From positions 1 through 56,367 of the forward strand of contig NZ_VHIB01000019.1 of NCBI RefSeq assembly GCF_008087345.1: a stretch of 56,367 bases of DNA. Direction: 5' to 3'. The DNA comes from Nocardioides caldifontis. Its GTDB lineage: Bacteria; Actinomycetota; Actinomycetes; Propionibacteriales; Nocardioidaceae. The position numbers and the translations under genes were made by a program. The notes below the pieces were generated by a model. It saw only the letters and a list, made by a program, of their open reading frames with translations, made no database searches and was not told the DNA's origin. Each line of letters begins with the position of its first letter. The stretch's first letter is position 1. Positions 31,834 to 55,956 of this stretch are shown here, in pieces.

Positions 31834-31840
31834 GCCTTCG

Positions 31841-39442: not shown

Positions 39443-39446
39443 ACAA

Positions 39447-39520
39447 GGGGCGGTAGCTCAGCCGGTCAGAGCAGAGGACTCATAATCCTTGGGTCGTGGG
39501 TTCGAGCCCCACCCGCCCTA
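39447..39520 (+). tRNA. tRNA with CAT anticodon (elongator Met or Ile2)
   Basis: A 74-nt cloverleaf: acceptor GGGGCGG with CCGCCCT (first pair G-U), D arm GCTC-AGCCGGTCA-GAGC, anticodon stem GAGGA/TCCTT with loop CTCATAA, T arm GTGGG-TTCGAGC-CCCAC, discriminator A; CCA is not encoded. A CAT anticodon means elongator Met or, with lysidine, Ile2; these cannot be separated by eye. Its 5' 26 bp also occur at 29960 and its 3' 43-bp block (39479-39521) at 55914. It is intact but lies between two integrated elements. Confidence 0.92.
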
Positions 39521-39521
39521 C
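39479..39521 (+). repeat. attL core of the 16.5-kb element
   Basis: These 43 bp, from the anticodon loop to one base past the tRNA end, are identical to 55914-55956. They mark the left boundary of the integrated element. The integrase gene begins 64 bp further on. Confidence 0.88.
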
Positions 39522-39584
39522 TACCTGCGGAAACGCGGGGATTCGATCCCGCACAACGGTGGCACAGAGGAGTATTCTGGCTCT

Positions 39585-40505
39585 GTGCCACCACGTCAAC
39601 CACCCGCCGAGGGGGAACCACTCAGCGGCTTCCTCGACGACTGGGCGATCCATCTTCGAGCGCGGAACCGCTCGCGCGGCACGATCGAGTCGTACCTGAC
39701 GGTGGGGCGCGCACTCTGTGCCTGGCTCGACGTCAGCGGCCGTCCGAGCGAGCACACCGCTATCACCAAGGCAACTCTCGAGCAGTACCTCGCCGAGATG
39801 CACGAGCGGGTCTCGCCCGCCACGGTCGCTAAGCACTACCGCTCCTTGCAACAACTGTTCCGGTGGCTCGTGGTCGACGGAGAACTCGACCGCTCACCGA
39901 TGGAGAACATGAGCCCGCCGTCCGTCCCCGACCAACCCGTCCCGGTCCTGGACGTCGACGACCTCGGCAAGCTCCTCAAGAGCGCGGCTGGCAACACCTT
40001 CGAGAACCGCCGTGACACCGCGATCATCCGTCTCTTTCTCGACACGGGAATGCGCGCGGGTGAACTCATCGGACTCCGGGTGGACGACATCGACCGTGAA
40101 CAATCAGTCGCCTTCGTCATGGGCAAGGGTGGCCGCGGTCGAGCCTGCCCCTACGGCGCCAAGACCGCCGACGCTCTGCGCCGCTACCTCCGGGAGCGAT
40201 CCCGTCACCCGGCCGGCAAGCACGCCGACGCGCTCTGGATCGGAAAGAAGGGACCGATGACCGACTCGGGCGTGCGGCAGATGCTCGAGCGGCGCTGCAA
40301 GGACGCCGGTCTCGATCCCATCCACCCTCACCAGTTCAGGCACACGATGGCCCATCGCTGGCTCGCCGCCGGGGGCCAGGAAACCGACCTCATGCGACTC
40401 GCCGGTTGGCGCTCTCGCGAGATGGTCGGCCGCTACGCCGCGTCCGCCGCGGATGAGCGTGCGCGTGATGCCCACCGTCGCATGGCACTTGGGGACCAGT
40501 TGTGA
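39585..40505 (+). CDS. Tyrosine recombinase (integrase)
   Basis: A 306-aa integrase with an N-terminal SAM-like core-binding domain (about 8-100, [20 protein letters not shown]) and a C-terminal catalytic domain. Arg157 ([12 protein letters not shown]), His249 and Arg252 ([13 protein letters not shown]), Trp275 (AGWRS, in place of His) and nucleophile Tyr284 (GRYAAS) are all present. The GTG at 39585 lies 7 nt after TATTCT (39573-39578), so the mRNA is probably leaderless and promoted from the att region. It integrates the element at the tRNA 3' end. The next gene overlaps by 4 bp. Confidence 0.92.
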
Positions 40506-40894
40506 ACGCGGGCTGCTTCGAAACCTGCGACGAGGGGTGCCCTGGGGACTCCCCTTTGGCCGTTGCGCTCTGGAAGTCATCTCGACCCACGGTCAGCGAG
40601 GTGTGGTGCGCAGACCACAAGCACCGTCTTGCGAAGGTGTTCAGTATCGACGGCCACAGGGTCCTCTGCCTGCCCCGGCACATCTACGGCTATGGAGCGA
40701 CCCCCGTTCACGCCGCTTTGGTCAATATCGACGATCCCGAGGATTTCCGGGAAGAGTGGTTGCGAAGCAAATGCGGATCCTGGTCTCTGCCTCGAGACCG
40801 ACTGCTCTCGCAGCTGGAGCGACGAGTGTCGTGGATCTTGCCGCACAAGATGACGATCTTCCGAAAGTCGGGCGACGCTCCGCAATCCACCTAG
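40502..40894 (+). CDS. Hypothetical Cys/His-containing protein
   Basis: A 130-aa protein starting at GTG 40502, within the integrase stop. Cys and His are frequent in the first half ([33 protein letters not shown]), suggesting zinc binding; the second half is helical with [13 protein letters not shown]. No family recognised. Translational coupling to the integrase suggests a role in integration, excision or early regulation, but this is inference. A 111-bp gap follows. Confidence 0.55.
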
Positions 40895-41005
40895 AGCGCA
40901 TTCGCGTCCTCTATGCACTAGTGTGAGGCACAACGGCTAGTCGGCAATGCCGCGGAACCGTGGAGATGAGCGCCACGGAGGACCTCGAAGTGAGGTTGAT
41001 TCCGC

Positions 41006-41326
41006 ATGGCCGCTCGAACCGCCGAGGATCGCTCCCTCGTTGCTCAGATCGCCGCCGCCGAGCGGTGGGGGCGAACCCACGACCGCACAGCCGCTACCGC
41101 GCCCGCGCGTGCTGGCCTCCGAGCCAAGTTCGCTCGAGAGATAGACCCAGACGGCGTCCTCGATCCAGCCGAAGTCGAGCGCCGCGTCGACCAGCTCGTG
41201 CGTGCTCACATGCTACGCATGTCCCTAGCCGCACGGACCGCGCGGCGAAAGGCTCGTGAGCTGACCGAAGCTGCAGAAGCGGCCGAGGCCGAGCTCGCCG
41301 AGGCGGGTGACGCCGATGTTGCCTGA
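41006..41326 (+). CDS. Small helical hypothetical protein
   Basis: A 106-aa protein (MAARTAEDRSLVAQIAAAER at the start) that is almost all helix, with Arg/Ala-rich segments and a C-terminal coiled coil (ARELTEAAEAAEAELAEAG). Short proteins of this style are common near the start of actinobacterial mobile-element operons; no function is known. ATG 41006 leads a series of five genes with overlapping ends running to the RepA-like ATPase. Confidence 0.6.
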   Translation: MAARTAEDRSLVAQIAAAERWGRTHDRTAATAPARAGLRAKFAREIDPDGVLDPAEVERRVDQLVRAHMLRMSLAARTARRKARELTEAAEAAEAELAEAGDADVA

Positions 41327-41516
41327 GAACCCAGGAAACAGTGAGCGCCCCGGTCGGGCAACCGAGGCGCTGGATGTCACTGCTGGCGAAGCGGACGACG
41401 ACATTCTAGAGCGATGCCGCCGGTGCGGCCATGTCCTGGTGGTCGAGTCGTCGATTCGTTTGGGCGTCGGTCCCGTCTGCCGCCGGCTCGAAATCGCTGA
41501 AGCGGTGGTCGCATGA
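41307..41516 (+). CDS. Small zinc-finger protein (DUF6011-like)
   Basis: A 69-aa protein whose second half is a compact zinc site: LERCRRCGHVLVVESSIRLG, then VGPVCRRLE. The pattern CxxC, SxRxGVGPxC is that of DUF6011, frequent in actinophages and their satellites, possibly nucleic-acid binding. Start is GTG 41307, overlapping the previous gene by 20 bp; the next gene's ATG overlaps its stop (ATGA). Confidence 0.65.
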   Translation: MTPMLPENPGNSERPGRATEALDVTAGEADDDILERCRRCGHVLVVESSIRLGVGPVCRRLEIAEAVVA

Positions 41517-41785
41517 TCGCCGGCTGCCTCTATGTAGACCTCACCCGCGAGCCGGACGTCTACGGCAGCGGCGATCGCCAAGCGCTCGACGTCCTCGAGC
41601 GTTGCCCGGACGGCGCCCGCGTCGTGGTGGATATCGGCCGTCGCGAGTTCGTGACGCAGGACGTTGCTCTCTGGCTCCACAACCACGACCACCGGCTCTC
41701 GATCGAGATCCGTGGGGAGAGTCCTGAGGCCATCCGGCGCTTCGTGTCGGCTGCGCGCGCAGGCGACTGGTCGGTGGTCGCGTGA
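41513..41785 (+). CDS. Hypothetical protein with alternating beta/alpha pattern
   Basis: A 90-aa protein. The order of strands and helices (CLYVDLTREPD, ARVVVDIGRREFVT, DVALWLHNHDHRLSIEIRG, EAIRRFVSAARAGD) resembles a small STAS-like fold, but no signature residue confirms it. It overlaps both neighbours by 4 bp and belongs to the rep operon. Function unknown. Confidence 0.55.
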   Translation: MIAGCLYVDLTREPDVYGSGDRQALDVLERCPDGARVVVDIGRREFVTQDVALWLHNHDHRLSIEIRGESPEAIRRFVSAARAGDWSVVA

Positions 41786-42015
41786 GCCGCCGCCGAGTGA
41801 CCGTCCTGGAGCGCGGGAGCACGATCGTCGTCCGCGGGTGGCGCGTCGGTGACCTACTGACTGAGGCCGGGCTCCGTCCCGTGTTCAACGGGATTGCAGG
41901 CGGGTTCGTGTTGGACGCCGATCGGCTGCCTGACGTCGTGGCCGCGCTCGAGTACCGCAACTTGCCGGTCGCCATCGTGCCTCAAGTCCCCGGTGGCCCG
42001 GGTGATGCCGCATGA
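41782..42015 (+). CDS. Small hypothetical protein
   Basis: A 77-aa protein, GTG start inside the previous stop. Beta-rich first half (RVTVLERGSTIVVRGWRVGD) and a second part VFNGIAGGFVLDADRLPDVV that ends in a mobile Gly/Pro tail. No family recognised. The stop overlaps the ATPase ATG by 4 bp. Confidence 0.5.
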   Translation: MSRRRVTVLERGSTIVVRGWRVGDLLTEAGLRPVFNGIAGGFVLDADRLPDVVAALEYRNLPVAIVPQVPGGPGDAA

Positions 42016-43094
42016 CTGGCGTGGGCTACGACGACTTCCCCGACGTGGAGGTCTCACCACCGGGAGAGCCGGTCTTTCGCCGCTCCTGGCGTCCGGTGAA
42101 CCTGGGTGAGGTGCTTGAGGGGTCCTGGCGGCCCCCAGCGCCCACTGTGGGGCGCAGGGCGGACGGCGTGGGGCTGTTCTACCCGGGGAAGCTGCATACC
42201 GTCTCCAGCGAGTCCGAGGGCGGCAAAACCTGGTTCATGCTCTCGGTGGTCCTCGACGAGCTCGGCCGCGGCAACAACGTGGTCTACGTCGACTTCGAGG
42301 ACGACGAGGGCGGCATCGTCGGGCGGCTACTGACCCTCGGCGCGGACCGTGACGCCCTGTTGCGGCGGTTCCACTACGTCCGTCCCGACGACGCCCTCGG
42401 CGGGGGAGTGCATCTCGACGACTTCGTCACGCTGCTACGAGACACCCGGCCAACACTCGGTGTGGTCGACGGGGTCACGGAGGCGATGACGCTGCATGGG
42501 TGGTCGCCGAACGACAACTCGGACGTGGCGAAGTTCGGCCGGATGCTGCCGCGCCGGCTCGCAGCGGCAGGGGCCGCGTCGGTGTCGCTGGACCACGTCA
42601 CCAAGTCGAACGAGACGCGGGGCCGCTACAGCCTCGGAGCGGTGCACAAACTCAACGGCCTCGACGGCGCCGCCTACGTGCTGGAGAACCGCACCTCGTT
42701 CGGCGTCGGGCTGACCGGCCGCTCGACGGTCCGGATCGCGAAGGACCGTCCGGGGCAGCTCCGCAAGCACGCACTGGCGTCGTCGGGTGGTCTGCACTGG
42801 ATGGGTGACCTAGTCCTGACCTCGCACAGTGAGGCGTTCGCCGAGGTGGAGATCGTGGCACCGATCGAGACGACGTCGACCGAGTTCCGGCCCACCCATC
42901 TCATGGGCGAGATCTGCGCGGTCCTCGAGAAGCACGGACCGCTCTCCGGCGCCAAGATCGAGGCGCTCGTCAAGGGCAAGGCGTCCAGCATCAGGACCGC
43001 CAAGACCCTGCTCCAAGTCGACGGCTACGTGTCTGACGGGTCGCCGCACGCTCTGTTGCGACCTTGGGATGGCGGTGGCATCGGTGATGCGTGA
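42012..43094 (+). CDS. RepA-like RecA-fold ATPase (AAA_25 type)
   Basis: A 360-aa protein with a RecA/KaiC-like ATPase domain. Walker A is HTVSSESEGGKTWFML (about residues 58-73), an NTP-contacting Glu/Asp set follows in VVYVDFEDDEGGIVGRLL, and the Walker B strand is LGVVDGVTEAM; SVSLDHVTKSNETRGRYSLG completes the core. A C-terminal winged-helix-like part (about 290-345) may bind DNA. Proteins of this kind are replicative helicase or primase-loader components of phages, satellites and plasmids. An iteron-like cluster lies just after it, so it is the likely replication initiator or helicase. Confidence 0.78.
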   Translation: MTGVGYDDFPDVEVSPPGEPVFRRSWRPVNLGEVLEGSWRPPAPTVGRRADGVGLFYPGKLHTVSSESEGGKTWFMLSVVLDELGRGNNVVYVDFEDDEGGIVGRLLTLGADRDALLRRFHYVRPDDALGGGVHLDDFVTLLRDTRPTLGVVDGVTEAMTLHGWSPNDNSDVAKFGRMLPRRLAAAGAASVSLDHVTKSNETRGRYSLGAVHKLNGLDGAAYVLENRTSFGVGLTGRSTVRIAKDRPGQLRKHALASSGGLHWMGDLVLTSHSEAFAEVEIVAPIETTSTEFRPTHLMGEICAVLEKHGPLSGAKIEALVKGKASSIRTAKTLLQVDGYVSDGSPHALLRPWDGGGIGDA

Positions 43095-43119
43095 AACGGG
43101 AAATCTTGCGGTTGGCGAC

Positions 43120-43368
43120 CTCGTCCCCGCGCAGGGACGAGGTGTGGAAGCCGAGTCCGACGCCCTACGCCGCAAATCTTTCGGCCAAGCGTCTCTTCTG
43201 GGCCTTTCGCTGGCCAGAACGTCACCTCGTCCCCTCGTCCCGACCTCGTCCCATCTCGTCCCGGACGGGGGTCACCCACCCTCGTCCCTCGTCCCCCTCC
43301 CTAAGGGGGGACGAGGACGAGGTAGTGACAGCCGCGACCGCGAGGAGCTGTACCTCGTCCCTCGTCCC
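43120..43368. repeat. CTCGTCCC iteron-like cluster, candidate replication origin
   Basis: CTCGTCCC occurs nine times on the plus strand (starts 43120, 43226, 43234, 43245, 43255, 43281, 43288, 43354, 43361) and twice inverted (43134, 43308). Several copies are head to tail, and near-copies also occur. The block falls between the RepA-like gene and the HTH gene. A 96-residue frame through it is only a translation of the repeats. Confidence 0.65.
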
Positions 43369-43385
43369 GGACGGGCGGTGACCCC

Positions 43386-43775
43386 ATGACTTCGGTGCAT
43401 TGCGTGGACCGCGAACTCGCCGGACACCTGGCGGTTGCGCTGCGGCGTCATCGGCAGTGGGCCGCACGCCAGGCGGTGCGTGTGCCGGAAGGCTTCCTCG
43501 ATGTGGAGCGGATGTTCAGTTTGCGGGCCACTGAGGGTCAGGGCGGGACAGCGCTGGAGCGGTTGTGGGAGTTCCGTGAGGCTCGGGTCATGAGCCCGCA
43601 ACTGCTGACGTACGAGGCCGCTGCCGCGGTGCTGTCGGTTTCGGTGCGGACGGTGAAGCGGCTGGTGCAGGAGGCCGTGCTGCCGGTGGTTCGCGTCGGG
43701 GAGATGCCTCGCATTCGCGTGGTTGACCTCGATGCCTACGTGGCCGGGCTCGAGACCGAGAGGAAGCCGGCGTGA
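43386..43775 (+). CDS. MerR/excisionase-type HTH DNA-binding protein
   Basis: A 129-aa protein. The C-terminal half is an HTH_17 excisionase-type domain: LLTYEAAAAVLSVSVRTVKR, then LVQEAVLPVVRVGEMPRIRV and DLDAYVAGLE, the wing and dimer segments. The N-terminal about 70 residues are helical and basic. It could be the excisionase, or regulate the gene block that follows. It starts a new run of overlapping genes immediately behind the repeat cluster, which might be its operator. Confidence 0.72.
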   Translation: MTSVHCVDRELAGHLAVALRRHRQWAARQAVRVPEGFLDVERMFSLRATEGQGGTALERLWEFREARVMSPQLLTYEAAAAVLSVSVRTVKRLVQEAVLPVVRVGEMPRIRVVDLDAYVAGLETERKPA

Positions 43776-44086
43776 AGATCGAGAACACCTACGACGAGGT
43801 GCTGTTCGCTGCGGTGCAGGCGGGGTTGGAGCCCGACGACTCCGACGTCGCTCAGGTTCGGGTTCCAGCGGGAGAGGATCCGCAGCAGTTCGCGGCATCG
43901 ATCCGCTCGACTGCCAGCCGCATCGCCGCGTTCCGCAAGCAGGGCAATAACGGTGCTGCGCGGAAGCTGGCCGATGAAGCCCAGGCCGCCTACCTGGCGA
44001 AGTTCGAGCAGTTGATGCCGATCCCAGCCGGCCGTAACGACGACACCTCCCTCGCCGAGATCGGCGCGCGGATGTTCGGAAGGTGA
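43772..44086 (+). CDS. Hypothetical protein
   Basis: A 104-aa protein, GTG start overlapping the HTH stop by 4 bp. Segments VLFAAVQAGLEPDDSDVAQV and STASRIAAFRKQGNNGAARK suggest a mostly helical protein. No family is recognised. Position between an HTH protein and a coiled-coil protein in one operon is its only clue. Confidence 0.55.
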   Translation: MKIENTYDEVLFAAVQAGLEPDDSDVAQVRVPAGEDPQQFAASIRSTASRIAAFRKQGNNGAARKLADEAQAAYLAKFEQLMPIPAGRNDDTSLAEIGARMFGR

Positions 44087-44088
44087 CC

Positions 44089-44706
44089 ATGACGACGACT
44101 TACGAGGATCTCCGTCAGCGGATGCTGGACGGTGACGACACCATCACCGCCGCGCAGCTCGACAAGGCGCGACGTGATGCGGAGTTCGAGGAGCTGCAGC
44201 GCCAGGCTGCTGAGGCAGCCACGGAGCGCACCGCCGAGCAGCAGCGACAGGCGGCGATCGAGGTGCTGCGCGGCAGGGCCGAGGTTGCGCAGACCAGCGG
44301 TTTGAGCGAGATGCAGGCCGCGTACCGCAAGGCGCTCGAGGCGCTGCGTGCGCTCCGGGCGGGCATGGAGACGTACAACGCTGAGGCCGGTGCCATCGCC
44401 GGCATAGCCAAGAAGCTAGGGGCCTCGGACGTGGACACCCCGCGAGCCTTCGACGTCGCTCACGAGATGAGCCGTCTAGCCGAGCAGGCGAAGACCGACC
44501 GGCCGCACCGCGTCGGGCTGTTCACGCTGTCTCGCCTGGTCGATGCGGACTATCGGGCCGAAGCCGAGGAGGATGACGCACGACGCCGCGCGGTGGCGAA
44601 GGAGAACGAGCGTCAACGTCTTGCCGACCTTGAGCGACAGAGGGCCGAGCGTGAGGCGGAGCAGCAGCGCCTCGATCGGCTCCGTTACGCGAACGGCTTG
44701 CAGTGA
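44089..44706 (+). CDS. Coiled-coil protein
   Basis: A 205-aa protein rich in Glu, Gln, Arg and Ala. Two long coiled coils are evident: about 25-75 (KARRDAEFEELQRQAAEAAT) and about 155-200 (DDARRRAVAKENERQRLADL). It resembles scaffold- or adaptor-like proteins of phages in character, but no family match is claimed. ATG 44089 is preferred over GTG 44083 because GGAAGG ends about 7 nt before it. Confidence 0.6.
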   Translation: MTTTYEDLRQRMLDGDDTITAAQLDKARRDAEFEELQRQAAEAATERTAEQQRQAAIEVLRGRAEVAQTSGLSEMQAAYRKALEALRALRAGMETYNAEAGAIAGIAKKLGASDVDTPRAFDVAHEMSRLAEQAKTDRPHRVGLFTLSRLVDADYRAEAEEDDARRRAVAKENERQRLADLERQRAEREAEQQRLDRLRYANGLQ

Positions 44707-44919: not shown

Positions 44920-45279
44920 ATGACCGATTCACGCGCGAAGCAGCCTCCGCCGGGGCTCAAGAAGCGCGGTCGGAGGCTCTGGAAACAGGTCCTTTCGACC
45001 TACGAACTGCGGCTCGACGAGTTGATTCTGCTCGAAACCGCATGCAAGACCGTTGACCTTCTCGACGACCTCGAGGCGGCGATGGACGGTCAGCCGCTCA
45101 TCACTAAGGGCTCGATGGGGCAGGAGCGGGAGAACCCGCTGTTGTCCGAGGCTCGCCAGCAGCGCGCACACCTCAACCGCACGTTGGCGCAGCTCAAGCT
45201 TCCCGACGAGAGCACCGGCGCCCAGATCAACCACCAGCGCGCAGGCGGCCACGCACGATGGGCGCGGGCGCATGGCTGA
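44920..45279 (+). CDS. Phage small terminase (P27-like)
   Basis: A 119-aa protein: GLKKRGRRLWKQVLSTYELR, then DELILLETACKTVDLLDDLE, a short beta turn (PLITKGSMGQERENPLL) and HLNRTLAQLKLPDE. This is the layout of P27-family small terminases, which recognise packaging DNA and recruit the large terminase. AAGGAG precedes ATG 44920. No large terminase follows, so it would have to redirect a helper's motor, as the small terminases of known satellites do. Confidence 0.82.
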   Translation: MTDSRAKQPPPGLKKRGRRLWKQVLSTYELRLDELILLETACKTVDLLDDLEAAMDGQPLITKGSMGQERENPLLSEARQQRAHLNRTLAQLKLPDESTGAQINHQRAGGHARWARAHG

Positions 45280-45523
45280 CCCGCTCGAGGCGCTCAGCGC
45301 CTACCCCGAACCCATCCTCGACCAACTCCACCGGATCGCCCGACTCGCCGCCGGCATGAGCGCTACCGAGAAGTCCGAGGCGCGCCGGTTCTTCGCCGCG
45401 CTCGTCCTCGAGTGGGCCGTCGCAGGACCAGATGACCAGATCCCGGCGGCCGAGATGGTCGGCGCGCTGGGTCAGATCGTGACCACGGCCGACGCGTTGG
45501 CCGCAACAAGGCAGGTGGCCTGA
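45272..45523 (+). CDS. Small hypothetical protein after the terminase
   Basis: An 83-aa helical acidic protein (LEALSAYPEPILDQLHRIAR, AEMVGALGQIVTTADALA). It overlaps the small-terminase stop by 8 bp and ends 1 bp before the tape-measure start, so the three genes are one translational unit. In phages, small proteins right before the tape measure are tail assembly chaperones; size and place fit that idea, but the usual slippery frameshift site is not seen. Confidence 0.5.
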   Translation: MADPLEALSAYPEPILDQLHRIARLAAGMSATEKSEARRFFAALVLEWAVAGPDDQIPAAEMVGALGQIVTTADALAATRQVA

Positions 45524-45524
45524 C

Positions 45525-48272
45525 ATGGGCGTTCGCAACGAGGCGGTGCGGCTCAGCCTCATCGACGACTTCAGTAGCGGCATGGCGAAGGCTGTCGCTC
45601 AGACGGCGCTCCTCAACCGCGAGCTGAACAGCCTTTCGGGCCAGTCGGTCGTCACGGCGCGAGTGTCCAAGAACTTCGCTCGGGACACCGACAGCATCGC
45701 GCGCTCAGCCAACAAGGCCGACACGAGCATCAACCAGCTCACGGGCCGGCTCCGCTTCATGGCGCAGGCCGCGGCCGCGCTCGGCCCCGGCCTCCTCCCG
45801 ATCGGCGCCGTCGGGATCCCGGCCGTAACCGGGCTCGCCAACCAGCTCGGTGTCGCCGCGCTGGCGGGCGGTTCCCTCGTCCTGGCCTTCCAGGGCGTCG
45901 GAGACGCGCTCGAGGCGGTCAACGAGGCGTCCATCAACCCGACGGCCGAGAACCTCGAGAAGGCGCGCGAGGCCATGCAGCAGCTCTCCCCGGCCACGCA
46001 GGATCTCGTGACGCGCCTGCAGGAGCTCCGCCCCGCGATGCAGGCGCTCAGGGACGCCTCGGCAGAGGGCGCGTTCCCCGGGATCATCGCGATGTTCGAC
46101 TCCCTCGAGACACGCGGCGACGAGGTCACGGCGATCTTCCACAACATCGCCTCCGCGGCCGGCGAGCTCGCAGCCGACGCGGGCGCCGACCTCGCCTCCG
46201 AGCGCTGGACGGCGTTCTTCGAGTTCCTGGCGACCGAGGCTCCCCGCACGCTCACCACGCTCGGTCAGACGATCGGCAACCTGACGCACGGGCTCGCCGA
46301 ACTGTGGATGGCCTTCACGCCGCTCAACAACGACTTCTCCAACTGGATGCTCGACGCCTCTCGCAGCTTCGACGAGTGGGCCGCTGGTCTCTCGCAGACT
46401 GAGGGCTTCCAGGAGTTCGTCGCCTACGTCCGCGAGACCGGTCCGCAGGTGGCCGAGACGTTCGGCGCGATGGCCGAGGCCGTCATCCAGATCGCCCAGG
46501 CCGCCGCCCCTCTCGGCGGACCTGTTCTCGCTGGGCTCGAGGCGGTCGCCAACGTCGTCGCCACGATCGCCGACTCCGACCTCGGCGGCCCGATCATGGC
46601 CGGTGTCCTGGCGTGGGGCGTGTTGACCCGGGCGGTCGAGTCCTACAAGGCGGTCGCGGCATCTGCCTTCGGTCAGAAGTTCGGCAGAGTCGTCGGGTCG
46701 CTCACCGAGGTCACGACTGCCCAGGACCGGGCGCGCCAGTCCGCGGCTTCCCTGGCGACCCAGGCGGACCGAACGAGCCGGTCCCTGTCGCTGATCGGCA
46801 AGGGGCTGATGGCCGGCGGTGTCCTGGCGGCGCTGGGGCTCCTCGACGACGCCTTCGACGACCTGTTCAACCGTGACCTCGACACCTCGACCCTGAGCCG
46901 CAGCCTCGAGGCGTTCGCGGCCCGCGGCCAAGTGCTCGGCACGATCCGAGACGTCTGGGGCGCGGATCTCGCCGGGCTCAACAACGACCTCGACACCCTC
47001 GACAACAACTACGTCCGGTTCTTCGACACCCTCGCCCGTCCGCTGCCCGGCGACGGCACCGCCACCGAGCAGGCCGAGAGCAACTTCCGCAAGCTCGACG
47101 AGGCACTCGCCAGCCTCGTCGAGGGCGGCAACGCCGACCAGGCCGCCGCGATCTTCGACCAGCTCGCTTCCAAGGCGGCCGAGGGCGGCAACAGCGCGAC
47201 GCAGCTCATGGGCCAGCTCGAGCAGTACGGCATCGCGCTCGAGAACGCCGGGGACTCCGCGAGCAACGTCAACGTCTCCTCGGCCAACGCCGTCGAGGGG
47301 ATGATGGAGGTCAGTTCGGCCGCCCAGCGGGCCAGGGATCGTGTCGCCGCGCTGAACGCAGCGATGGAGGCCCTGAGCGGCTTCTTCGACAAGCGCGCTG
47401 CGATCCGCAACTACGAGGCCGCCCTCGACGACTTCCGCAAGGGGCTGCGCGAGACTGGCCGGTCGTTCGACGTCACCACCGCGAAGGGCCGCGAGAATCA
47501 AGCGCGTCTCGACGCCATCGGGCAGTCAGCGCTCCAGGTTGCTCAGAACCTGACCGGCATCCGCCGCGCTCGGTTCGTCGACAATGTCGTCGGCCAGTTG
47601 CAGCAGATGGCGAGCCAACTAAACGGGCCGGCCAAGCAGGCGGTTCTCGATGTCATCCGTGAGCTCAAGAACCTCGGCAACCAGAAGCCGAAGCCCAAGG
47701 TGAAGGTCGAGGGCGTCCCGGAGGCAATCTCCAGCGTCAACGCGGTCGAGAACGCGCTGGACCGTGTCGACGGCGACGTCGCCACGGCGCGCATCGTGAC
47801 GATCCGCGAGACGCGCTTCACGACGAGCGGTTCGCCTAACGCTGCCCCCATCGGAGGGCCGGTCGTGGGTGAGAACGCGAATGGCGGCATCTACAAGGAC
47901 GGCCTCCGCACGTTCGCTGATGGCGGCTGGGGGTCCGATGGCCGCTACTACGACCGCGTACCCCAGATCGTCAGGGGCGGCGCGAACATCCTCTGGGCCG
48001 AGCAGGAGACAGGCAAGGAGGCGTACATCAGCGCGAAGCGCGGGATGGAGGAGCGCAACATCGCCATCCTGAACGAGGCGGCGTCGTGGTTCGGCCTGGG
48101 GCTTCGTCGGTACGCGAACGGCGGGATCTCGGGCGGCTCGACGTCGACCATCGACAACTCGCGCCCCGTGTCGGTGGTCAACAACTTCAACGGGCCGACC
48201 TACGACCCCTTCGCCGTTGCTCGCGCGGTCGAGGAGAGGCAGCGTGACGCGGTCGCGCTGATGAGCGTCTGA
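45525..48272 (+). CDS. Phage tail tape-measure protein
   Basis: A 915-aa tape-measure protein of siphophage type. The N-terminus is RLSLIDDFSSGMAKAVAQTA, followed by coiled-coil (to about 75), hydrophobic segments GPGLLPIGAVGIPAVTGLAN and QLGVAALAGGSLVLAF (about 85-125), long helical stretches, more hydrophobic helices around 330-380 and 425-445, and a Gly/Asn-rich C-terminus (ENANGGIYKDGLRTFADGGW, RYANGGISGGST). Tape measures set tail length and enter the cell with DNA. At the usual about 0.15 nm per residue, a tail near 130-140 nm is predicted. No tail-tube, chaperone or tip genes accompany it. Confidence 0.88.
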   Translation: MGVRNEAVRLSLIDDFSSGMAKAVAQTALLNRELNSLSGQSVVTARVSKNFARDTDSIARSANKADTSINQLTGRLRFMAQAAAALGPGLLPIGAVGIPAVTGLANQLGVAALAGGSLVLAFQGVGDALEAVNEASINPTAENLEKAREAMQQLSPATQDLVTRLQELRPAMQALRDASAEGAFPGIIAMFDSLETRGDEVTAIFHNIASAAGELAADAGADLASERWTAFFEFLATEAPRTLTTLGQTIGNLTHGLAELWMAFTPLNNDFSNWMLDASRSFDEWAAGLSQTEGFQEFVAYVRETGPQVAETFGAMAEAVIQIAQAAAPLGGPVLAGLEAVANVVATIADSDLGGPIMAGVLAWGVLTRAVESYKAVAASAFGQKFGRVVGSLTEVTTAQDRARQSAASLATQADRTSRSLSLIGKGLMAGGVLAALGLLDDAFDDLFNRDLDTSTLSRSLEAFAARGQVLGTIRDVWGADLAGLNNDLDTLDNNYVRFFDTLARPLPGDGTATEQAESNFRKLDEALASLVEGGNADQAAAIFDQLASKAAEGGNSATQLMGQLEQYGIALENAGDSASNVNVSSANAVEGMMEVSSAAQRARDRVAALNAAMEALSGFFDKRAAIRNYEAALDDFRKGLRETGRSFDVTTAKGRENQARLDAIGQSALQVAQNLTGIRRARFVDNVVGQLQQMASQLNGPAKQAVLDVIRELKNLGNQKPKPKVKVEGVPEAISSVNAVENALDRVDGDVATARIVTIRETRFTTSGSPNAAPIGGPVVGENANGGIYKDGLRTFADGGWGSDGRYYDRVPQIVRGGANILWAEQETGKEAYISAKRGMEERNIAILNEAASWFGLGLRRYANGGISGGSTSTIDNSRPVSVVNNFNGPTYDPFAVARAVEERQRDAVALMSV

Positions 48273-48353: not shown

Positions 48354-49541
48354 GTGACTCGACTGCCAATCTTCGATGCCAAGGAACGCACCAGCACTGA
48401 GGCGGGACGTCATAGCGAGTCGACGTATGCGTTCCTCGACCGAATCGCTGGACAGCACTGGGCAGCCGCACGCGAGCTCATGCAGGCTTGGGCCGACCGC
48501 GTAGTTACCGATGAGGACTATCACGACTTGCGGGCCCGGCTCCGCTCGAAGGACGACTACCAGTTCCGCAGCGCGTTCCTTGAGCTCTATGTGCATGAGT
48601 GCCTGCTCGAAGCCGGATACGACGTAACGGTCCATCCCCAGCTTGAGGGCACAAGCCGACGCCCTGACTTCCTCGCCGTTCGCGGCGATGAGCGGATCTA
48701 CTTCGAGGCCATAGCGCCAGGCGTGGCGCCGGCAGACCAAGCTGCCGCGTCTCGGCGAGGTGTCTTGTTCGACACCGTCAACCGGCTCGCCGACCCGAAC
48801 TTCAATCTGTGGCTCGATGACCTCGTGGAAGGCGCCAGCCCACCCTCGGCAGCGAAGCTCCGCCAGGAACTCGGCAAGTGGTTGAGTCAACTCAACCCGG
48901 ACGACTACCCGCGCTTGGAGGAAGCGCCGGAGTATCGCTGGCAGCGGGACGACTGGGCTGCAACCTTCAAGGCGATGCCGAAGGCGAAGCATGCAAGGGG
49001 CCCTGTTGAGCCGGGTGACCGAGCCATCGGTGTCTACGCGCACGAACCCGTGCGGATGATCAACGACGCGCCAGCGATCCGCGACGCGCTGGCAACGAAG
49101 CAGAGCGCCTATGGAGACGTCGGAGCGCCCTTCTGCATCGTCGTGGGCATGTACATCTGGGACACGGACCACCACCACTCGACCAATGCGTTGTACGGCC
49201 ACGAAGGCGTGCAGTTCGGGGAAACGCTGGAGGGTGCCCGTATTAGTCGCTTGGTGAGGGAGCCAAACGGCTTCTTCGGGGCTCCTCCGATGTGGGCGCA
49301 CCGGAACGTCTCGGGGGTTCTGCTGGTGAACCAGCTGCAGCCGTACTCAGTGCCCCGTGCGGATGTGACCTTCTGGCGGCATCCCGACCCGCACCATGAC
49401 CTGCCTGCAGACTTCAGCCCGCCGGGAGTGACGGTCGAGCTCGTTGACGGAGTGATCACCGAGACTGAGCCCCGAAGCGGCTATGACTTCTTCCGGCTCC
49501 CTGAACCGTGGCCGCCGGGTGAGGCTTGGCCGGACGACTAG
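48354..49541 (+). CDS. PD-(D/E)XK-nuclease-like protein, possible defence cargo
   Basis: A 395-aa protein. Residues about 70-125 have the layout of a restriction-endonuclease-like core: FRSAFLELYVHECLLEAGYD (helix with Glu), then RRPDFLAVRGDERIYFEAIA, giving Asp and Glu of the motif with Ala where Lys is usual. The rest (LVREPNGFFGAPPMWAHRNV, SGVLLVNQLQPYSVPR) has no recognised family. Proteins of this kind are often found as single-gene antiphage cargo in mobile elements. GTG start, 81 bp after the tape-measure gene, with no overlap, so it is likely an independent cassette. Confidence 0.6.
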   Translation: MTRLPIFDAKERTSTEAGRHSESTYAFLDRIAGQHWAAARELMQAWADRVVTDEDYHDLRARLRSKDDYQFRSAFLELYVHECLLEAGYDVTVHPQLEGTSRRPDFLAVRGDERIYFEAIAPGVAPADQAAASRRGVLFDTVNRLADPNFNLWLDDLVEGASPPSAAKLRQELGKWLSQLNPDDYPRLEEAPEYRWQRDDWAATFKAMPKAKHARGPVEPGDRAIGVYAHEPVRMINDAPAIRDALATKQSAYGDVGAPFCIVVGMYIWDTDHHHSTNALYGHEGVQFGETLEGARISRLVREPNGFFGAPPMWAHRNVSGVLLVNQLQPYSVPRADVTFWRHPDPHHDLPADFSPPGVTVELVDGVITETEPRSGYDFFRLPEPWPPGEAWPDD

Positions 49542-49735: not shown

Positions 49736-49764
49736 AGCGGGAGCGTAGGGCCCAGCTTCGACGG

Positions 49765-50130: not shown

Positions 50131-50252
50131 GTCAACAACCCTTCATGGGCGGATCACCGCTCGCAACCCGCCCGAGCACGGGGTAATGACGGCGCATTAG
50201 TGCACTGGTGGCACCAGCGGCGACGTGCAAAAGGGCGCGTCTAGACAGGCAT

Positions 50253-50404
50253 GAGCGAGCCCCACGCCGACGGGGGAGACGACGCGGGGCTCACAGTCCA
50301 GTGTCGGATGCCGCGCAATGGGACTTGAAGCTCGCCAGAGCCTCGGCGTTCGCTGCTTGAGTCGCAGAGGATGGCGACCGGACGTCACCGCCGCGGGCGT
50401 CCGG
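50253..50404. repeat. 150-bp repeat, copy B
   Basis: It matches copy A (34821-34973) across most of its length. The terminator-like stem is GAGCCCCACG/CGCGGGGCTC (50257-50266, 50283-50292) with one mismatch. Finding the same module in both tRNA-integrated elements suggests common ancestry or exchange between them. Confidence 0.7.
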
Positions 50405-50954: not shown

Positions 50955-51207
50955 CTCAACACCGCTGAGATTGCGTCCGTGCACGCTGACGGCGTAAGGG
51001 AGCGAAGTCCCGAACATCCGGGACCTGCCCGGGGCAGTCGACCGGGTGGGTGGGGTGGGGTAGGGGTGTCCCGGAGCGGCCAGCCCAAACCGCTTCCGCC
51101 GGACCTCGCGCATCGGCGCTCACTCTGCAACGATGCACTCGTGAGGTTCCGAGCGCTCCCACCCCGCCCCCCGTGGCGGGTGTGGTCACGGACGGAGAGC
51201 GCCTTCG

Positions 51208-51369: not shown

Positions 51370-51414
51370 GCATACGGCGGGCGGACCACGGACGCCGGCG
51401 GCTACTCTCCATGC

Positions 51415-52229: not shown

Positions 52230-52261
52230 GATTGAGACAAGAGCCGGGGGCTAGCGGCAGC

Positions 52262-52927
52262 TCACTTCCACTTGTCGGGCCGGTGGAAGGACTTTCCTGA
52301 CGCTTTGCCCGGGACCGACTGCGGCAGTTGGGCCTGTCGGATCCGCCCCTTGCCGATGCTGAAGGAGGCGGGGAATTGCGTCTTGATGTCTTGACTGTGT
52401 CGGTTCGGCGGAAAGGCGAAGAGCACGAACAGCTTCGGGTTGATCCGCCTTGCGGCTCGTACTGCTGGAAGCAGGTCGCTGTCTGCGGTGACCATCAGCG
52501 CGGTGTCGCACGAGCCAGAAGCGGCGTCAGAGATCAACTCTGAGGCGATATTGACATCGGTCTCCTTCTCCTCGTACAGGGTGTAGGTGTGCCCGCATTT
52601 GCGGCATGTCCGAAGCTTGGATTGATAGCGGCCCTGGATGATCGTGACGTTCTGGCAATGCGATGTCAGCGCGTTCTGGTACGTCTGCTGGCGTGACGCC
52701 CCTCCGGGGTCGTTAAGCACCGGGGCCGTGAAGTACTTGACCCGGGTGAGTTGCGCCTGAGGGCGCAAAAGCGTGCCGAGCGCCTCAAGGTCTAGCCAGA
52801 GCCACTTGCAACGCGCCCAGTCATGCAATCCGTGGTACAGATTGAAGCCGTCGACGTACATGGTCATGCGCTGTACCAAGGCGTGCACCCCCCGTGCTAC
52901 TGACGAGTAACTTAAGTCGGAGGTCAT
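52262..52927 (-). CDS. NYN-domain ribonuclease-like protein with CxxC insert
   Basis: About 221 aa. NYN (LabA/DUF88) PIN-like fold: first Asp in MYVDGFNLYHGL, then KETDVNIASELISDAA and LMVTADSDLLPAVRAAR supply the remaining acidic residues. An insertion TCRKCGHTYTLY between strands carries a CxxC pair, perhaps half of a zinc site. Such proteins cut RNA; several act in mobile-element or phage conflict. Start ATG 52927 is the first good one; MTMYVDGF at 52867 is the minimal alternative. AT-rich DNA near 52975 probably holds its promoter. Confidence 0.78.
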   Translation of the reverse strand: MTSDLSYSSVARGVHALVQRMTMYVDGFNLYHGLHDWARCKWLWLDLEALGTLLRPQAQLTRVKYFTAPVLNDPGGASRQQTYQNALTSHCQNVTIIQGRYQSKLRTCRKCGHTYTLYEEKETDVNIASELISDAASGSCDTALMVTADSDLLPAVRAARRINPKLFVLFAFPPNRHSQDIKTQFPASFSIGKGRIRQAQLPQSVPGKASGKSFHRPDKWK

Positions 52928-53021
52928 GACCTTCGACACGCCCCATTCGGTGGACACCAGTTGAGCGGTGTGCCTATATTTACACCAACCCCGCCACCAC
53001 CGCGCCAACGGTGATGGCCCG

Positions 53022-53049
53022 ACGGCCCCCACTCGTGGGGGCCGTTTTT
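53022..53049 (+). terminator. Strong intrinsic terminator
   Basis: ACGGCCCCCA and TGGGGGCCGT form a perfect 10-bp stem around CTCG, followed by TTTTG. It separates the NYN gene region from the gene at 53079 on the plus strand. Confidence 0.85.
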
Positions 53050-53078
53050 GTCTCTCCGGACGTACCAGGGAGGTAGCC

Positions 53079-53513
53079 GTGGACCCGTCAGCCCCTCATG
53101 AAGGTCCGCCTCCGCGTCAGGTGTATCCGGGGACACGGGTGACGGGACATCAGCTCAACGTCTCGCCCACCCGAGCCTTCTGTCGGTGCGGGTGGTCCTG
53201 AGACCGTGAGGACGCTGACCTCGGCGGCCCTCACGACGCCGCGGCGGAGCACCTTCGTACCTGCTGGCCGCACATCCTAGAGCGAGGTAGAGGCGAAAAC
53301 TGGCACGAGTTTGCAGACCGGCTGGCTCGCGAACACGATGCCGCCATCGTTAAGCGCGAGCGCATCTGGAAAGAGTTCGGCATGGGGCGGCCGACCCAGC
53401 CCGGGCACCCGCTGCCGACGATCCCTGCTGAGTGGGCGGCTGCCGACGACAGGGTAGAGGTGCTTGAGCAACAACTCGCAGAGGTGCTTAGGAAACTGGG
53501 ACGCTCGCACTGA
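53079..53513 (+). pseudogene. Zinc-motif protein gene with one in-frame TGA
   Basis: One frame runs from GTG 53079 (GGGAGG upstream) to TGA 53513 and would give a 144-residue product, with a single TGA at 53199. Before it: VYPGTRVTGHQLNVSPTRAF, then CRCGWS. After it: DREDADLGGPHDAAAEHLRT, CWPHILERGRGENWHEFADR and KEFGMGRPTQ. CxC, His and a later Cys/His could form one zinc site across the stop, and both halves keep coding character. One G-to-T change (GGA to TGA) would explain it; readthrough is the more interesting option. Confidence 0.55.
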
Positions 53514-53796
53514 GGAGTTCGACAAGTCGGTCGACGAGTCCGCGCTCGGCCAACCTGCCCGCCTCGTCGTGGGTCGCGACTTGCGCCGTCGTTAGCACCG
53601 GGCGTCCGGCGAGCAACACCTCTCCGTGCCACCGTTCGGGCTGCCCGGCGTCCTCGCAGACCGCATAGATAGCGAAGCGAATCTCGCTGTGGTTCGACGC
53701 AACCGGGATCCGCGCGCCGGTCTTAATCTCGTGCCCGCCGATCCACTTACGGCTCTCGATGATCATGCGTTCGACCGTAATCGCGACCACCGACAA
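53488..53796 (-). CDS. Hypothetical protein
   Basis: A frame of up to 102 aa; the longest form starts at TTG 53796, GTG 53790 is possible, and ATG 53766 gives a 92-aa form. Strand-rich beginning (IGGHEIKTGARIPVASNHSE, IRFAIYAVCEDAG) and a helical end (GRLAERGLVDRLVELLSASV). No family recognised. It lies 18 bp after the ParB-like gene on the same strand, so it is probably the second gene of that operon. Its end overlaps the plus-strand gene at 53513. Confidence 0.5.
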   Translation of the reverse strand: MSVVAITVERMIIESRKWIGGHEIKTGARIPVASNHSEIRFAIYAVCEDAGQPERWHGEVLLAGRPVLTTAQVATHDEAGRLAERGLVDRLVELLSASVPVS

Positions 53797-53814
53797 CGGC
53801 CGCGGCGACCGTCA

Positions 53815-54639
53815 TTACCGCGGCTCCGGAAAGTTCGCTTGCGTCAGCCCGCCCCGCGGTAGCTGTAGCTTCGTCCGGGGCTCGCTGGCCCGGTGGGCGT
53901 TCCAGGCGAGGATCGCGAGCGCCAGCGCCTCGGTCTCACTGACTCGGCCACCGCCGACGCGCATCTTGACGATGCGCGCCCTGAGCGTGGCGATCGGGTC
54001 GTCGGCTGCAAGTCCGTCGCCGTCGGCGAGGCGGGCGAGGAACCAGGCCGCGTCGTCGGTGTCGAGGTCGGAGAACAGCCAGTGGCAGAGGCCGAAGATG
54101 CTGGCCGGGAGCATCGCCTTGGAGGCGAGCTTGGTGGCGACGTCGGCTGAGGTGCGGATCCGCTGGTTGTCGGTGAGGAACTCGTTCATTTCGAGCGGGG
54201 TGGGGGAGAGGCTGCCGACCTTGGTCCGGTATCCGCGTTCCCATAGCAGCGCCCGGCGGGTGACCGCGGCGAGGACGGAGGTGTTCTCCTCGCCCTGTAG
54301 CCGTAGCGCGTCGGCGTAGGTGCGCTTGGCGCCCGCGTCGACGGTCGGCATCACCGACTCCGGGACGTTGCGGACCACGATCATCGGCACCGTCACATCC
54401 GCGACGATCACGGCGTTGAGGCGGTGCTGGCCGTCGAGAAGGTGCCCGCGGGTGTCGATCTTGATCGTCTCCCCGTTGAGGTGCCAGTGGCCGGCGACCA
54501 TGTCGCGCGCGTAGGAGTCGATGACCGACTTCCGCAGGTTCCGGTTGCGGGCGTTCCGGGACAACCAGTCCTCGGCGGTGGCGGGGGAGACGTCGATGAT
54601 CTCGACGGTGACGGCCGGGGCGTCGGTGGTGGTGGTCAT
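53815..54639 (-). CDS. ParB/sulfiredoxin-fold protein
   Basis: A 274-aa protein with an N-terminal ParB-like nuclease/CTPase fold: VEIIDVSPATAEDWLSRNAR, DSYARDMVAGHWHLNGETIK and the signature HLLDGQHRLNAVIVADVTVP. The C-terminal about 150 residues are helical. Proteins with DGQHR motifs in actinobacterial elements and phages are often annotated as ParB domain proteins; partition or regulation is possible, but no ParA is present. Two palindromes upstream (54671 and 54729) could be its operators. Confidence 0.72.
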   Translation of the reverse strand: MTTTTDAPAVTVEIIDVSPATAEDWLSRNARNRNLRKSVIDSYARDMVAGHWHLNGETIKIDTRGHLLDGQHRLNAVIVADVTVPMIVVRNVPESVMPTVDAGAKRTYADALRLQGEENTSVLAAVTRRALLWERGYRTKVGSLSPTPLEMNEFLTDNQRIRTSADVATKLASKAMLPASIFGLCHWLFSDLDTDDAAWFLARLADGDGLAADDPIATLRARIVKMRVGGGRVSETEALALAILAWNAHRASEPRTKLQLPRGGLTQANFPEPR

Positions 54640-54670
54640 GGGTTTCTCTCTGCTGGTCGGCGGGCCGATT

Positions 54671-54697
54671 GCCGATCTTTCGGCCCGAAAGATCGGC
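54671..54697. promoter_or_regulatory. 12-bp perfect palindrome upstream of the ParB-like gene
   Basis: GCCGATCTTTCG-GCC-CGAAAGATCGGC. It lies 32 bp before the ParB-like ATG. It is followed by no T run on the minus strand, so an operator is more likely than a terminator. Confidence 0.55.
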
Positions 54698-54728
54698 GCG
54701 GTAATGGAGATTCCTCCACTAGCGCGCG

Positions 54729-54750
54729 CTATTCCCGGATTCGGGAATAG
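54729..54750. promoter_or_regulatory. 9-bp perfect palindrome
   Basis: CTATTCCCG-GATT-CGGGAATAG, 31 bp from the previous palindrome in the same 181-bp gap. Two different perfect dyads side by side suggest binding sites for two regulators or for one regulator of two operons. Confidence 0.5.
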
Positions 54751-54820
54751 TGGATGTGCCCGGCCCGGCGTCCCGGGGCGGGCGGTGATGGTGGGGAGCG
54801 GCCGGCGCGATGGCGGGTGG

Positions 54821-54991
54821 TCATGCCGATCCGTCCTGGCTCGAGGCGACTTGGTCTTTCGCGAGGGGGGCGGCGACCTCGTCCTTGCTGCTGAGGCGCA
54901 GTGTGGCCTGCAGCCGGCCAATAGTGATCACGCCGCCTGTCTCCACCGCCAGGCGCTCGAGCTCCGCGAGCGACACTCTGTGCCGCGTCAT
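54821..54991 (-). CDS. Very small hypothetical protein
   Basis: A 56-aa frame (MTRHRVSLAELERLAVETGG, then VITIGRLQATLRLSSKDEVA) whose ATG overlaps the upstream stop by 4 bp (ATGA). The HTH-like flavour of the middle part is suggestive but not diagnostic. Coupling to the two genes upstream supports it being translated. Confidence 0.5.
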   Translation of the reverse strand: MTRHRVSLAELERLAVETGGVITIGRLQATLRLSSKDEVAAPLAKDQVASSQDGSA

Positions 54992-55290
54992 GACCGGGCC
55001 TCGTTCACGGCGGCCAGGATGCGGCGCGCGAACGCCTCAGCCTCGTCGAGCGGCATCGCCTCGAAAGGCGTGTCGATGTGCAAGAGCGGCGGGTCGGTCG
55101 GGTCGACGGTTCCGTCGACGTAGCTGCTGCGGGACAGCCGGATCGGCGCGTCTTCTGACCAGTGGATGACGAGGCCCTCGTGATTGGACAGCTCGGCGAC
55201 ATGCTCACTGGTCGGGATGACACACCATTCAGGGCAGACGATGGTCGGCGGCTCGGTGACCGCCACGACGTATCCGGCGACGGTGCTCAT
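54988..55290 (-). CDS. DUF6907-like protein
   Basis: A 100-aa protein. PTIVCPEWCVIPTSEHVAEL carries the CPxWC motif followed by His residues that mark the DUF6907 family of actinobacterial mobile elements and conjugative plasmids; VNEARS ends the chain. The rest, PIRLSRSSYVDGTVDPTDPP and AEAFARRILAAV, resembles the second protein encoded upstream. It overlaps neighbours at both ends by 4 bp. Function unknown; zinc binding is likely. Confidence 0.68.
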   Translation of the reverse strand: MSTVAGYVVAVTEPPTIVCPEWCVIPTSEHVAELSNHEGLVIHWSEDAPIRLSRSSYVDGTVDPTDPPLLHIDTPFEAMPLDEAEAFARRILAAVNEARS

Positions 55291-55808
55291 CCCCTCGCCT
55301 CCTTGACCAGGAACGTCAGGACGGCGATCAGGTCCTCGGTGTCGGCGATGGTAAGCCGGAGTCTGTTCTCTCGGACGTACTTGCCACGCGGGTAGTGGGA
55401 CAGGTCGATCTTCACGATCGGCTCGGACTGACCGACCTGTTCCAGGTAGGACCGGACCGTCGCGGTCTCCACGTAGGAGGGGGTCTCATCGCTGGGCTCG
55501 CGTTGGTTGCGCACGCCGCGGTAAAGGCTCGCCACCGTCGTGGGCACGGGTTCCAGTCGGTGCGTGGCGGCCATCGGCGCGGCTTCGTCGACTTCGTGGG
55601 CCCAGTCATCGCCGTGGCGCGTCCAGCACCAGGTCGGGCACGGGTCCTTGTCCGGATGCGTGGACGCTTCGGCCCAGTAGTAGGTGGGCCGCACGCTCAG
55701 ACGTTGCTGTAGGGCGACGTCGTCAGGCTCGAGGATGTCCTCGATCGGGCGGCTGCGACTGCCTGGCTGGGTGACGTCGCTTGCCGCGGGAACGTCTGTG
55801 GCGGTCAT
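55287..55808 (-). CDS. DUF6907-like protein, longer paralogue
   Basis: A 173-aa protein with an N-terminal extension, then DKDPCPTWCWTRHGDDWAHE (CPxWC with His), a linker with THRLEPVPTTVASLYRGVRN, and the closing LRLTIADTEDLIAVLTFLVK. Its C-terminal half resembles that of the gene downstream, so the two are probably paralogues. It is the first gene of a three-gene minus-strand operon reading inward from the right att site, and its promoter lies in 55809-55913. Confidence 0.68.
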   Translation of the reverse strand: MTATDVPAASDVTQPGSRSRPIEDILEPDDVALQQRLSVRPTYYWAEASTHPDKDPCPTWCWTRHGDDWAHEVDEAAPMAATHRLEPVPTTVASLYRGVRNQREPSDETPSYVETATVRSYLEQVGQSEPIVKIDLSHYPRGKYVRENRLRLTIADTEDLIAVLTFLVKEARG

Positions 55809-55913
55809 GGTGGTCCATCCCTTCGGTGCCCCTCACAGAGGGGGATTCGGGTTGCGAAGGATCGACCTCTCCGCGTCACTGAGCCGGTAGCACAAGGGTT
55901 CAGAGGTTCAGTC

Positions 55914-55956
55914 CTCATAATCCTTGGGTCGTGGGTTCGAGCCCCACCCGCCCTAC
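55914..55956 (+). repeat. attR core of the 16.5-kb element
   Basis: These 43 bp are identical to 39479-39521. They hold the displaced 3' half of the host tRNA (anticodon loop to acceptor end); no 5' half precedes it. They mark the right end of the element. Confidence 0.88.

Follow-up and report, generated by a model that had tools for sequence, protein, structure and literature searches.

In the present study, we analysed a stretch of 56,367 nucleotides from Nocardioides caldifontis (contig NZ_VHIB01000019.1, called the window here at its full length) and the element integrated at a tRNA-Met gene within it, which we call element W. The assembly of the source genome has 4.8 Mb in 33 contigs, with the window on its contig 14, and is 99.65% complete. 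We consider that element W is, with a probability of roughly two in three, an integrated actinobacterial phage satellite that builds chimeric tails by means of its own tail tape-measure protein (TMP). What the data show directly is the gene content, the attachment (att) sites, the recurrence of similar elements in other genomes and the selection seen in one pair of elements.

The repeat scan of the window gave an exact 43-bp direct repeat at 39479-39521 and 55914-55956, with a spacing of 16,435 bp, the first copy coinciding with the 3' end of an intact tRNA-Met gene (cat), as an earlier note on this DNA had claimed for a tRNA-bounded element of 16.5 kb. The length of this exact repeat is far beyond chance, and the 11 other direct-repeat families in the scan were shorter and imperfect. 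The integrase, the RepA-like ATPase, the helix-turn-helix (HTH) proteins and the 915-aa tape measure named in the same note all have family matches in Pfam and PHROGs, and its iteron-like block was borne out by the repeated CTCGTCC copies counted 3' of the RepA-like gene. The P27-type small terminase stood in part; the protein is a small terminase subunit (TerS) by phrog_1496 (89 bits), but the score for PF05119, which we take to be the P27 family, was 21.8 bits and fell below the cut-off of 24.7. This TerS matches that of Footloose at 42% and that of Mendokysei at 41%. Furthermore, in agreement with the note, no family of large terminase (TerL), portal, protease, capsid, tail-tube, lysis or conjugation genes was matched in the 19 open reading frames (ORFs) of element W scanned with Pfam and PHROGs, the unscanned ORFs lying mostly in 50.1-52.2 kb. 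Element W is a discrete integrated element without genes for a complete virion, as is expected of a phage satellite, and the TerL, portal, capsid and tail tube that mark an autonomous temperate phage were not found in it. The features that carry the argument are listed here, with gene calls from a home-made caller; o83 is the small protein encoded beside the TMP, and element 2 is a second element of the same genome.

39447-39521, + strand: tRNA-Met (cat), attachment site gene, intact (ARAGORN; Rfam tRNA 69.5 bits)
39479-39521, no strand: attL, 43-bp direct repeat (repeat scan)
39585-40505, + strand: tyrosine integrase, start uncertain (PF00589 107 bits, phrog_1 175 bits, gene call)
42012-43094, + strand: RepA-like AAA_25 ATPase, probable replication protein (PF13481 38.9 bits with a cut-off of 27, phrog_695, 74% to L031)
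43120-43367, no strand: iteron array, probable replication origin, with a palindromic core at about 43286-43322 (repeat counts)
43386-43775, + strand: HTH_17 protein, excisionase or regulator (PF12728 31.8 bits with a cut-off of 27; phrog_57, phrog_66)
44920-45279, + strand: small terminase subunit TerS (phrog_1496 89 bits, in the longer reading of the frame)
45272-45523, + strand: 83-aa protein o83, directly 5' of the TMP gene (96% in element 2; dN/dS 0.125; low-confidence all-helical model)
45525-48272, + strand: tail tape-measure protein (TMP), 915 aa, intact (phrog_305 51.5 bits and further tape-measure families)
55914-55956, no strand: attR, 43-bp direct repeat (repeat scan)

A relative of the TMP on contig 6 of the source genome belongs to element 2 (L032), which has 31-bp tRNA-Val repeats with a spacing of 10,151 bp. 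Element 2 carries an integrase near each end, a different helicase-type replication gene and a different TerS (phrog_1459, 77 bits). Its o83 is 96% identical and its TMP 81% identical to those of element W, and the remaining proteins of element W have in it weak matches (Int 31% over 178 aa; a 90-aa protein 35%) or no match; hence, o83 and TMP behave as a cassette. Since a second element with such a pair and with a different TerS and replication gene is found in the same genome, a prophage deleted by chance is unlikely. The ratio of nonsynonymous to synonymous changes (dN/dS) between the two TMP genes is 0.32 overall, 0.18 in codons 1-400, 0.66 in codons 401-600 and 0.22 in the last 150, and for o83 it is as listed. 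The two TMPs diverge under purifying selection, as measured in this single pair, and the middle is most variable and both ends are conserved, which is the pattern expected of a ruler. An element pair in one genome with a common TMP and different TerS also separates head compatibility from tail compatibility.

The sequence directly 3' of RepA was examined for iterons. In the 310 bp at 43095-43404, CTCGTCC occurs in 9 forward and 3 inverted copies, with 6 copies in the rest of element W. The top 7-mer count in the 500 bp 3' of RepA was 9, and the maximum in 100 mononucleotide shuffles was 4. When the shuffle test was run over 10 TMP-bearing RepA loci, the shuffles were exceeded in 7 (W, L068, L081, L124, L125, L126, L128); L082 was above the shuffles in one of two runs (5 versus 4, and 5 versus 7 as L137), and L060 and L127 had no 7-mer excess over the shuffles 3' of RepA. 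In addition, an identical 37-bp core around CCCTAAGGGG is common to W and L125. Judged from its sequence, the array has the anatomy of a replication origin and probably functions as one.

The earlier note had proposed a search for similar gene order in other actinobacteria, and held that a lack of relatives would speak against a satellite; such elements exist, so that this objection failed. Relatives share a plan of integrase, replication gene, HTH protein, helical protein, sometimes TerS, small protein and TMP. TMP matches were obtained in 26 of 197 genomes of the family, and 20 neighbourhoods from 19 genomes were opened (the TMP-match genomes G105, G013, G182, G158, G160 and G144 were left out). 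Thirteen were prophages with head or tail-tube genes, six had a TMP without any such gene detected, and one (L075) lay at a contig edge. The RepA search gave 25 among 391 genomes of the order. Among the 17 RepA places inspected, element W included, seven have a TMP without detected TerL, portal or capsid (W, L081, L124-L128), one has a capsid protein alone (L134), four have a large terminase with or without portal and capsid (L123, L129, L130, L131), four have none of TerL, portal, capsid and TMP (L122 at a contig end, L132, L133, L136), and L135 was counted without gene calls.

Overall, a TMP without any detected capsid or large-terminase gene is present in 15 elements, which come from 13 genomes and one viral contig (W, L032, L060, L068, L072, L073, L081, L082, L086, L087, L124, L125, L126, L127, L128); L075 was left out as it starts at a contig edge. 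The sequence judged for each of the 15 was about 20 kb or shorter, and distant head genes could therefore be missed in the 10 without att repeats. PHROGs names a tape measure in all 15. Fifteen unlabelled ORFs of 246-435 aa, lying in nine of the other elements or next to them (taken together, L060, L072, L073, L081, L082, L086, L087, L125, L127, L128) and being a part of the ORFs present, had no match to a terminase, portal or capsid family; the matches obtained were a replication protein (L086) and a topoisomerase and phrog_5931 (L081). The shared plan of the 15, which varies (TerS in 6, RepA in 10), is what a recurring satellite family would show and random deletions would not. Those of similar plan include L081, at tRNA-Val with 28-bp repeats 15,691 bp apart and with Int, RepA, TerS, TMP and phrog_5931; L082 and L068 are similar, and so is L087 without detected RepA. 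L060 comes from Catellatospora methionotrophica. The IMG/VR contig L031/L068 follows the same plan with Int (36%), two small genes (44-46%), RepA (74%), TerS and small protein, and its TMP is 44% to that of element W over the first 377 residues. Scans of the viral contigs with the TMP returned the L068 contig again or nothing.

The TerS of L068 matches phrog_226, which is named minor tail protein in PHROGs. In these elements, that family is probably a small terminase and its name wrong, because the phrog_226 protein of L066 overlaps a large terminase gene and matches the TerS family phrog_1897, and because proteins of the L068 type show weak similarity to the TerS annotated in BillyTP (E 4e-4 to 0.01) and in Samy (E 0.004 to 0.07). 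L068-type TerS had one match at E <= 1e-15 in 394 genomes of the class.

Other elements with parts of a virion were also observed. L134 is an 8.9-kb element at tRNA-Asn (3955-12838, reversed frame) in which a major capsid protein stands alone beside integrase and RepA, and is a possible one-part satellite of the head. L123 is compact and combines RepA and TerL with portal, tail tube, a fusion of protease and capsid, and a tape measure of 376 aa. In Streptomyces bicolor (L048), RepA and a single head maturation protease lie within 85-bp repeats 11.2 kb apart, and the end of this protease has a weak metallo-protease match. At L065:6815-9670, one 952-aa frame matches portal, head protease and major capsid protein families.

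The history of the TMP was followed in a tree of 29 N-termini, with 14 satellite labels (L075 included, L125 and L126 left out) and 15 prophage or viral-contig labels. The labels change 10 times or more, and at least 6 changes are required by branches with good support; a number as low was reached in 319 of 500 label shuffles. The tree has several long branches, and 11 of its 26 inner branches are open. Since satellite and prophage TMPs interleave, phage TMPs seem to have been captured repeatedly, and repeated exchange between satellites and phages seems the plain reading of this tree. The gene o83 lies 1 bp from the TMP gene. A TMP with an adjoining chaperone would mark the chimeric-tail strategy known from other satellites; the TMP is matched in element W, and the role of o83 is read from its position, as profile comparison with the prophage tail-chaperone cluster gave no match for it. 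For the same reason, o83 as a homologue of phage tail chaperones was rejected. The ORF preceding the TMP in five prophages looks unrelated to o83 by eye, and the structure model of o83 is all-helical with low confidence (mean predicted local distance difference test score 68). We take o83 to be presumably a TMP chaperone or an inhibitor of the helper tail.

We infer replication, packaging by the helper large terminase, use of the TMP in tails and the partner role of o83 by analogy with known satellites, and picture them as follows. The integrase would insert element W into tRNA-Met and take it out, and the RepA-like ATPase with the adjoining iterons would replicate it upon infection by a tailed phage. 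The TerS would steer the helper large terminase to satellite DNA, which would be packed into helper heads. The o83 protein and the TMP would be made as a pair, o83 being most likely the own assembly partner of the TMP; the satellite TMP would replace the helper tape measure, and the helper tail-tube protein would assemble on the satellite ruler, giving a chimeric siphophage tail. The likely gains would be tails that escape tail-directed blocks, or a TMP that fits the host membrane during DNA entry. A wider picture, which we put forward tentatively and would not back at even odds, is a large actinobacterial satellite lineage that has a common replication core of integrase, RepA and iterons and takes up individual virion parts from phages, namely a tape measure (7 of the 17 RepA places), a single capsid protein (the 8.9-kb L134), a head protease by itself (L048) or more extensive sets of head genes. 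Its TMP members would be the mirror image of the capsid-forming phage-inducible chromosomal islands (cf-PICIs), stealing heads and imposing their own tail ruler with a small partner protein that chaperones the satellite TMP or blocks that of the helper.

Several results weigh against the satellite reading. A helper prophage, which the earlier note had suggested looking for, was not found, the source genome having no match to the profiles of TerL (PF03354, phrog_9), portal (phrog_12) and HK97 capsid (phrog_10); phrog_2 gave two weak matches (21.6 and 20.3 bits). Each of the five helper-gene searches was positive in control genomes, and a resident helper could be missed because the assembly is in 33 contigs. 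A single-sequence tail-tube query, used without a positive control, gave nothing in the source genome. The helper is probably an infecting phage, perhaps like the prophage with head and tail genes on contig 1 of genome G088, of which the TerS is 42% and the TMP 39.6% over 652 aa to element W; this twofold resemblance, in contrast to the other results here, speaks for a satellite. Among the 15 elements, TerS was found in only 6 (W, L032, L068, L081, L082, L087), flanking repeats in only 5 (W, L032, L073, L081, L128) and RepA of element W's family in 10. Head genes are present in some RepA-related elements. Residues 800-915 of the TMP of element W align to almost none of the 15 TMPs of the prophage set; other TMPs of the family do match this end (G105, 781-871, 47%). 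The missing profile match of o83 counts here as well, and so does the weak similarity among the small proteins preceding TMPs. Finally, satellite TMPs are not shorter than prophage TMPs (13 versus 13, p = 0.40, compared without L125, L126, L075 and the viral contigs L064 and L065). The ruler is thus not retained because it is short, and shorter tails as the purpose of the TMP were rejected.

These results have to be set beside the other readings of the same genes. Element W could be a decayed prophage, a siphophage of which the head and tail genes were deleted, leaving TerS and TMP; its single genes are phage genes, and TerL, portal or capsid genes are retained in a few RepA-related elements. 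The earlier note had named morphogenesis genes in a related intact element as a refutation, and this came out in part, in that L123, L129, L130 and L131 hold TerL with or without portal and capsid, but no such case was seen in the TMP-bearing set. We give decay hardly any weight, as 15 elements that differ in integration site, TerS family and TMP have a similarly reduced gene set, dN/dS is low in the sole pair measured (W and element 2), and TerS, o83 and TMP are contiguous on the same strand as the RepA block. Integrative elements of actinobacteria, too, have RepA-like ATPases and excisionase-like HTH genes, and element W could be an integrative mobilizable element moved by a conjugation helper or vesicles, with phage genes as cargo. 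An FtsK-like protein does stand at some RepA-related loci (L055; the same cluster in L066 and L133). However, no FtsK, Tra or relaxase family was matched in the 19 scanned ORFs, and TerS and TMP are kept, which makes such an element highly improbable.

The alternative of tail-assembly interference holds that TMP and o83 are mainly a decoy that poisons helper tail assembly and protects the host, and that particles use the helper TMP or do not form. Defence systems are known to act on tail assembly, as described for Tai (PMC11364771, excerpts) and the 80-aa protein Rta (PMC12987554, excerpts). The size of o83 (83 aa) is similar to that of Rta, element W has candidate defence genes, and by this analogy o83 may have a helper-poisoning role like that of Rta. 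Against this, the TMP is full length and under purifying selection, TerS and the replication gene point to transmission, and transfer of the phage-inducible chromosomal island-like elements (PLE), satellites of Vibrio cholerae, needs their TMP (PMC12987554, excerpts); we hold interference as the main function to be rather unlikely. The integrated satellite with its own tail ruler is the reading that we prefer.

The remaining features of element W are as follows.

41006-41326, + strand: small protein of the pre-RepA block (phrog_2842 25.6 bits; 46% to the L031/L068 homologue)
41513-41785, + strand: small protein of the pre-RepA block (gene call; weak match in element 2)
41782-42015, + strand: small protein (44% to the L031/L068 homologue)
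43772-44086, + strand: 104-aa protein (gene call; no family match in Pfam or PHROGs)
44083-44706, + strand: 207-aa protein, probably helical (gene call; no family above cut-off), in a slot filled by other probably helical proteins in relatives
48354-49541, + strand: 395-aa protein, weak match to the defence gene PD-T7-5 (PADLOC 16.7 bits)
52262-52867, - strand: NYN-domain protein, candidate defence gene HEC-09 (PF01936, phrog_7929, PADLOC HEC-09 225.5 bits)
53815-54639, - strand: phage-type protein phrog_5931 (239 bits), also near the far end of L081 (260 bits)
54988-55290, - strand: DUF6907-like protein, below cut-off (Pfam)
55287-55808, - strand: DUF6907-like protein, below cut-off (Pfam)

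A further element seems to sit left of the same tRNA-Met, at 29960-39446, with a 36-bp copy of the tRNA 5' half (94%) at 29960-29995 and the C-terminal ORF of an integrase at 38930-39442. In genome G050 of the same genus, 303 bp of the chromosomal left flank recur at 81%, some 1.2 kb 5' of an intact tRNA-Met. Neither this element nor element 2, which is on another contig, had been seen in the earlier note. A dispersed block with a strong GAGCCCC...GGGGCTC hairpin at 50248-50404 is 82-93% alike, over all or part of its length, at four further places of the genome (34817-34973, 33996-34043, L038 and L032:14546-14589), and in element 2 its place after the TMP resembles that of a terminator. This block was tried as a shared packaging site and rejected in view of the terminator-like hairpin and the copies elsewhere in the genome. 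The contig end at 56241-56367 (127 bp) is an exact copy of contig 7:53-179 in this assembly, which means that the two contigs adjoin or have a repeat in common.

Among the known systems, phage-inducible chromosomal islands (PICIs) and Staphylococcus aureus pathogenicity islands (SaPIs) have an integrase, a replication module with iterons and their own TerS. Element W likewise has an integrase, a Rep with adjacent iterons and a TerS, and iterons adjoin RepA in relatives too. To our knowledge, the classical PICI or SaPI plan is without a TMP; no regulator of the stl or alpA type, the PICI master regulators that a helper de-represses, was identified in element W, in which an HTH_17 protein is present. 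The cf-PICIs, like element W, carry a part of the virion and borrow the rest; they encode heads and packaging and take tails from the helper (PMC10690885, excerpts), and some are shown with putative tmp genes (PMC12987554, excerpts). In contrast to them, only TerS was found in element W out of the capsid, portal, head protease and both terminase subunits. The Streptomyces satellites MulchRoom and MiniFlayer are actinobacterial like element W and encode capsid and packaging sets, and no TMP is mentioned for them in the excerpts of the source (PMC10690885).

The earlier note knew of no satellite that hijacks capsids and supplies a TMP of its own, and this claim of novelty did not survive, as PLE satellites build chimeric tails (PMC12987554, excerpts) and a 10.9-kb record of Mycolicibacterium aichiense, WillG (OR387121), carries TerS and TMP. 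WillG, judged from its sequence to be probably a satellite, resembles element W in a TerS of the same family (43%, phrog_1496), its own TMP (phrog_305, 636 bits) and the absence of an annotated large terminase. It differs in a serine integrase and its own major capsid protein, adaptor and stopper, and its TMP has no tblastn match to that of element W. The record has 7 sister accessions, the comparison rests on WillG only, and no paper on it was found. A literature search for actinobacterial satellites with TerS and TMP found no account, preprints and most subscription papers being outside its reach.

The PLE are the one satellite family in which the building of chimeric tails has been shown. 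According to excerpts of PMC12987554, PLE1, PLE4 and PLE11 encode a TMP near a putative tail chaperone, the TMP of PLE11 replaces that of the helper in particles, and deletion of tmp in PLE11 lowers transduction by about 99.9%. Like PLE, element W is, on our reading, an integrated satellite with its own TMP. The PLE differ in a helper, ICP1, with a contractile tail and in a gammaproteobacterial host, whereas element W has a siphophage-type TMP, its own TerS, RepA with iterons and a tyrosine integrase at a tRNA, in Actinobacteria. The lineage of element W is apparently unrelated to PLE, as judged from host phylum and gene plan. On our best reading, satellite chimeric tails are already known from PLE and an actinobacterial siphophage-type lineage is what is new here. 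If this is true, such a lineage in another phylum, with its repeated capture of phage TMPs, would suggest that tape-measure replacement is a general satellite strategy and not an oddity of PLE, and would open to testing the question of why satellites need their own ruler.

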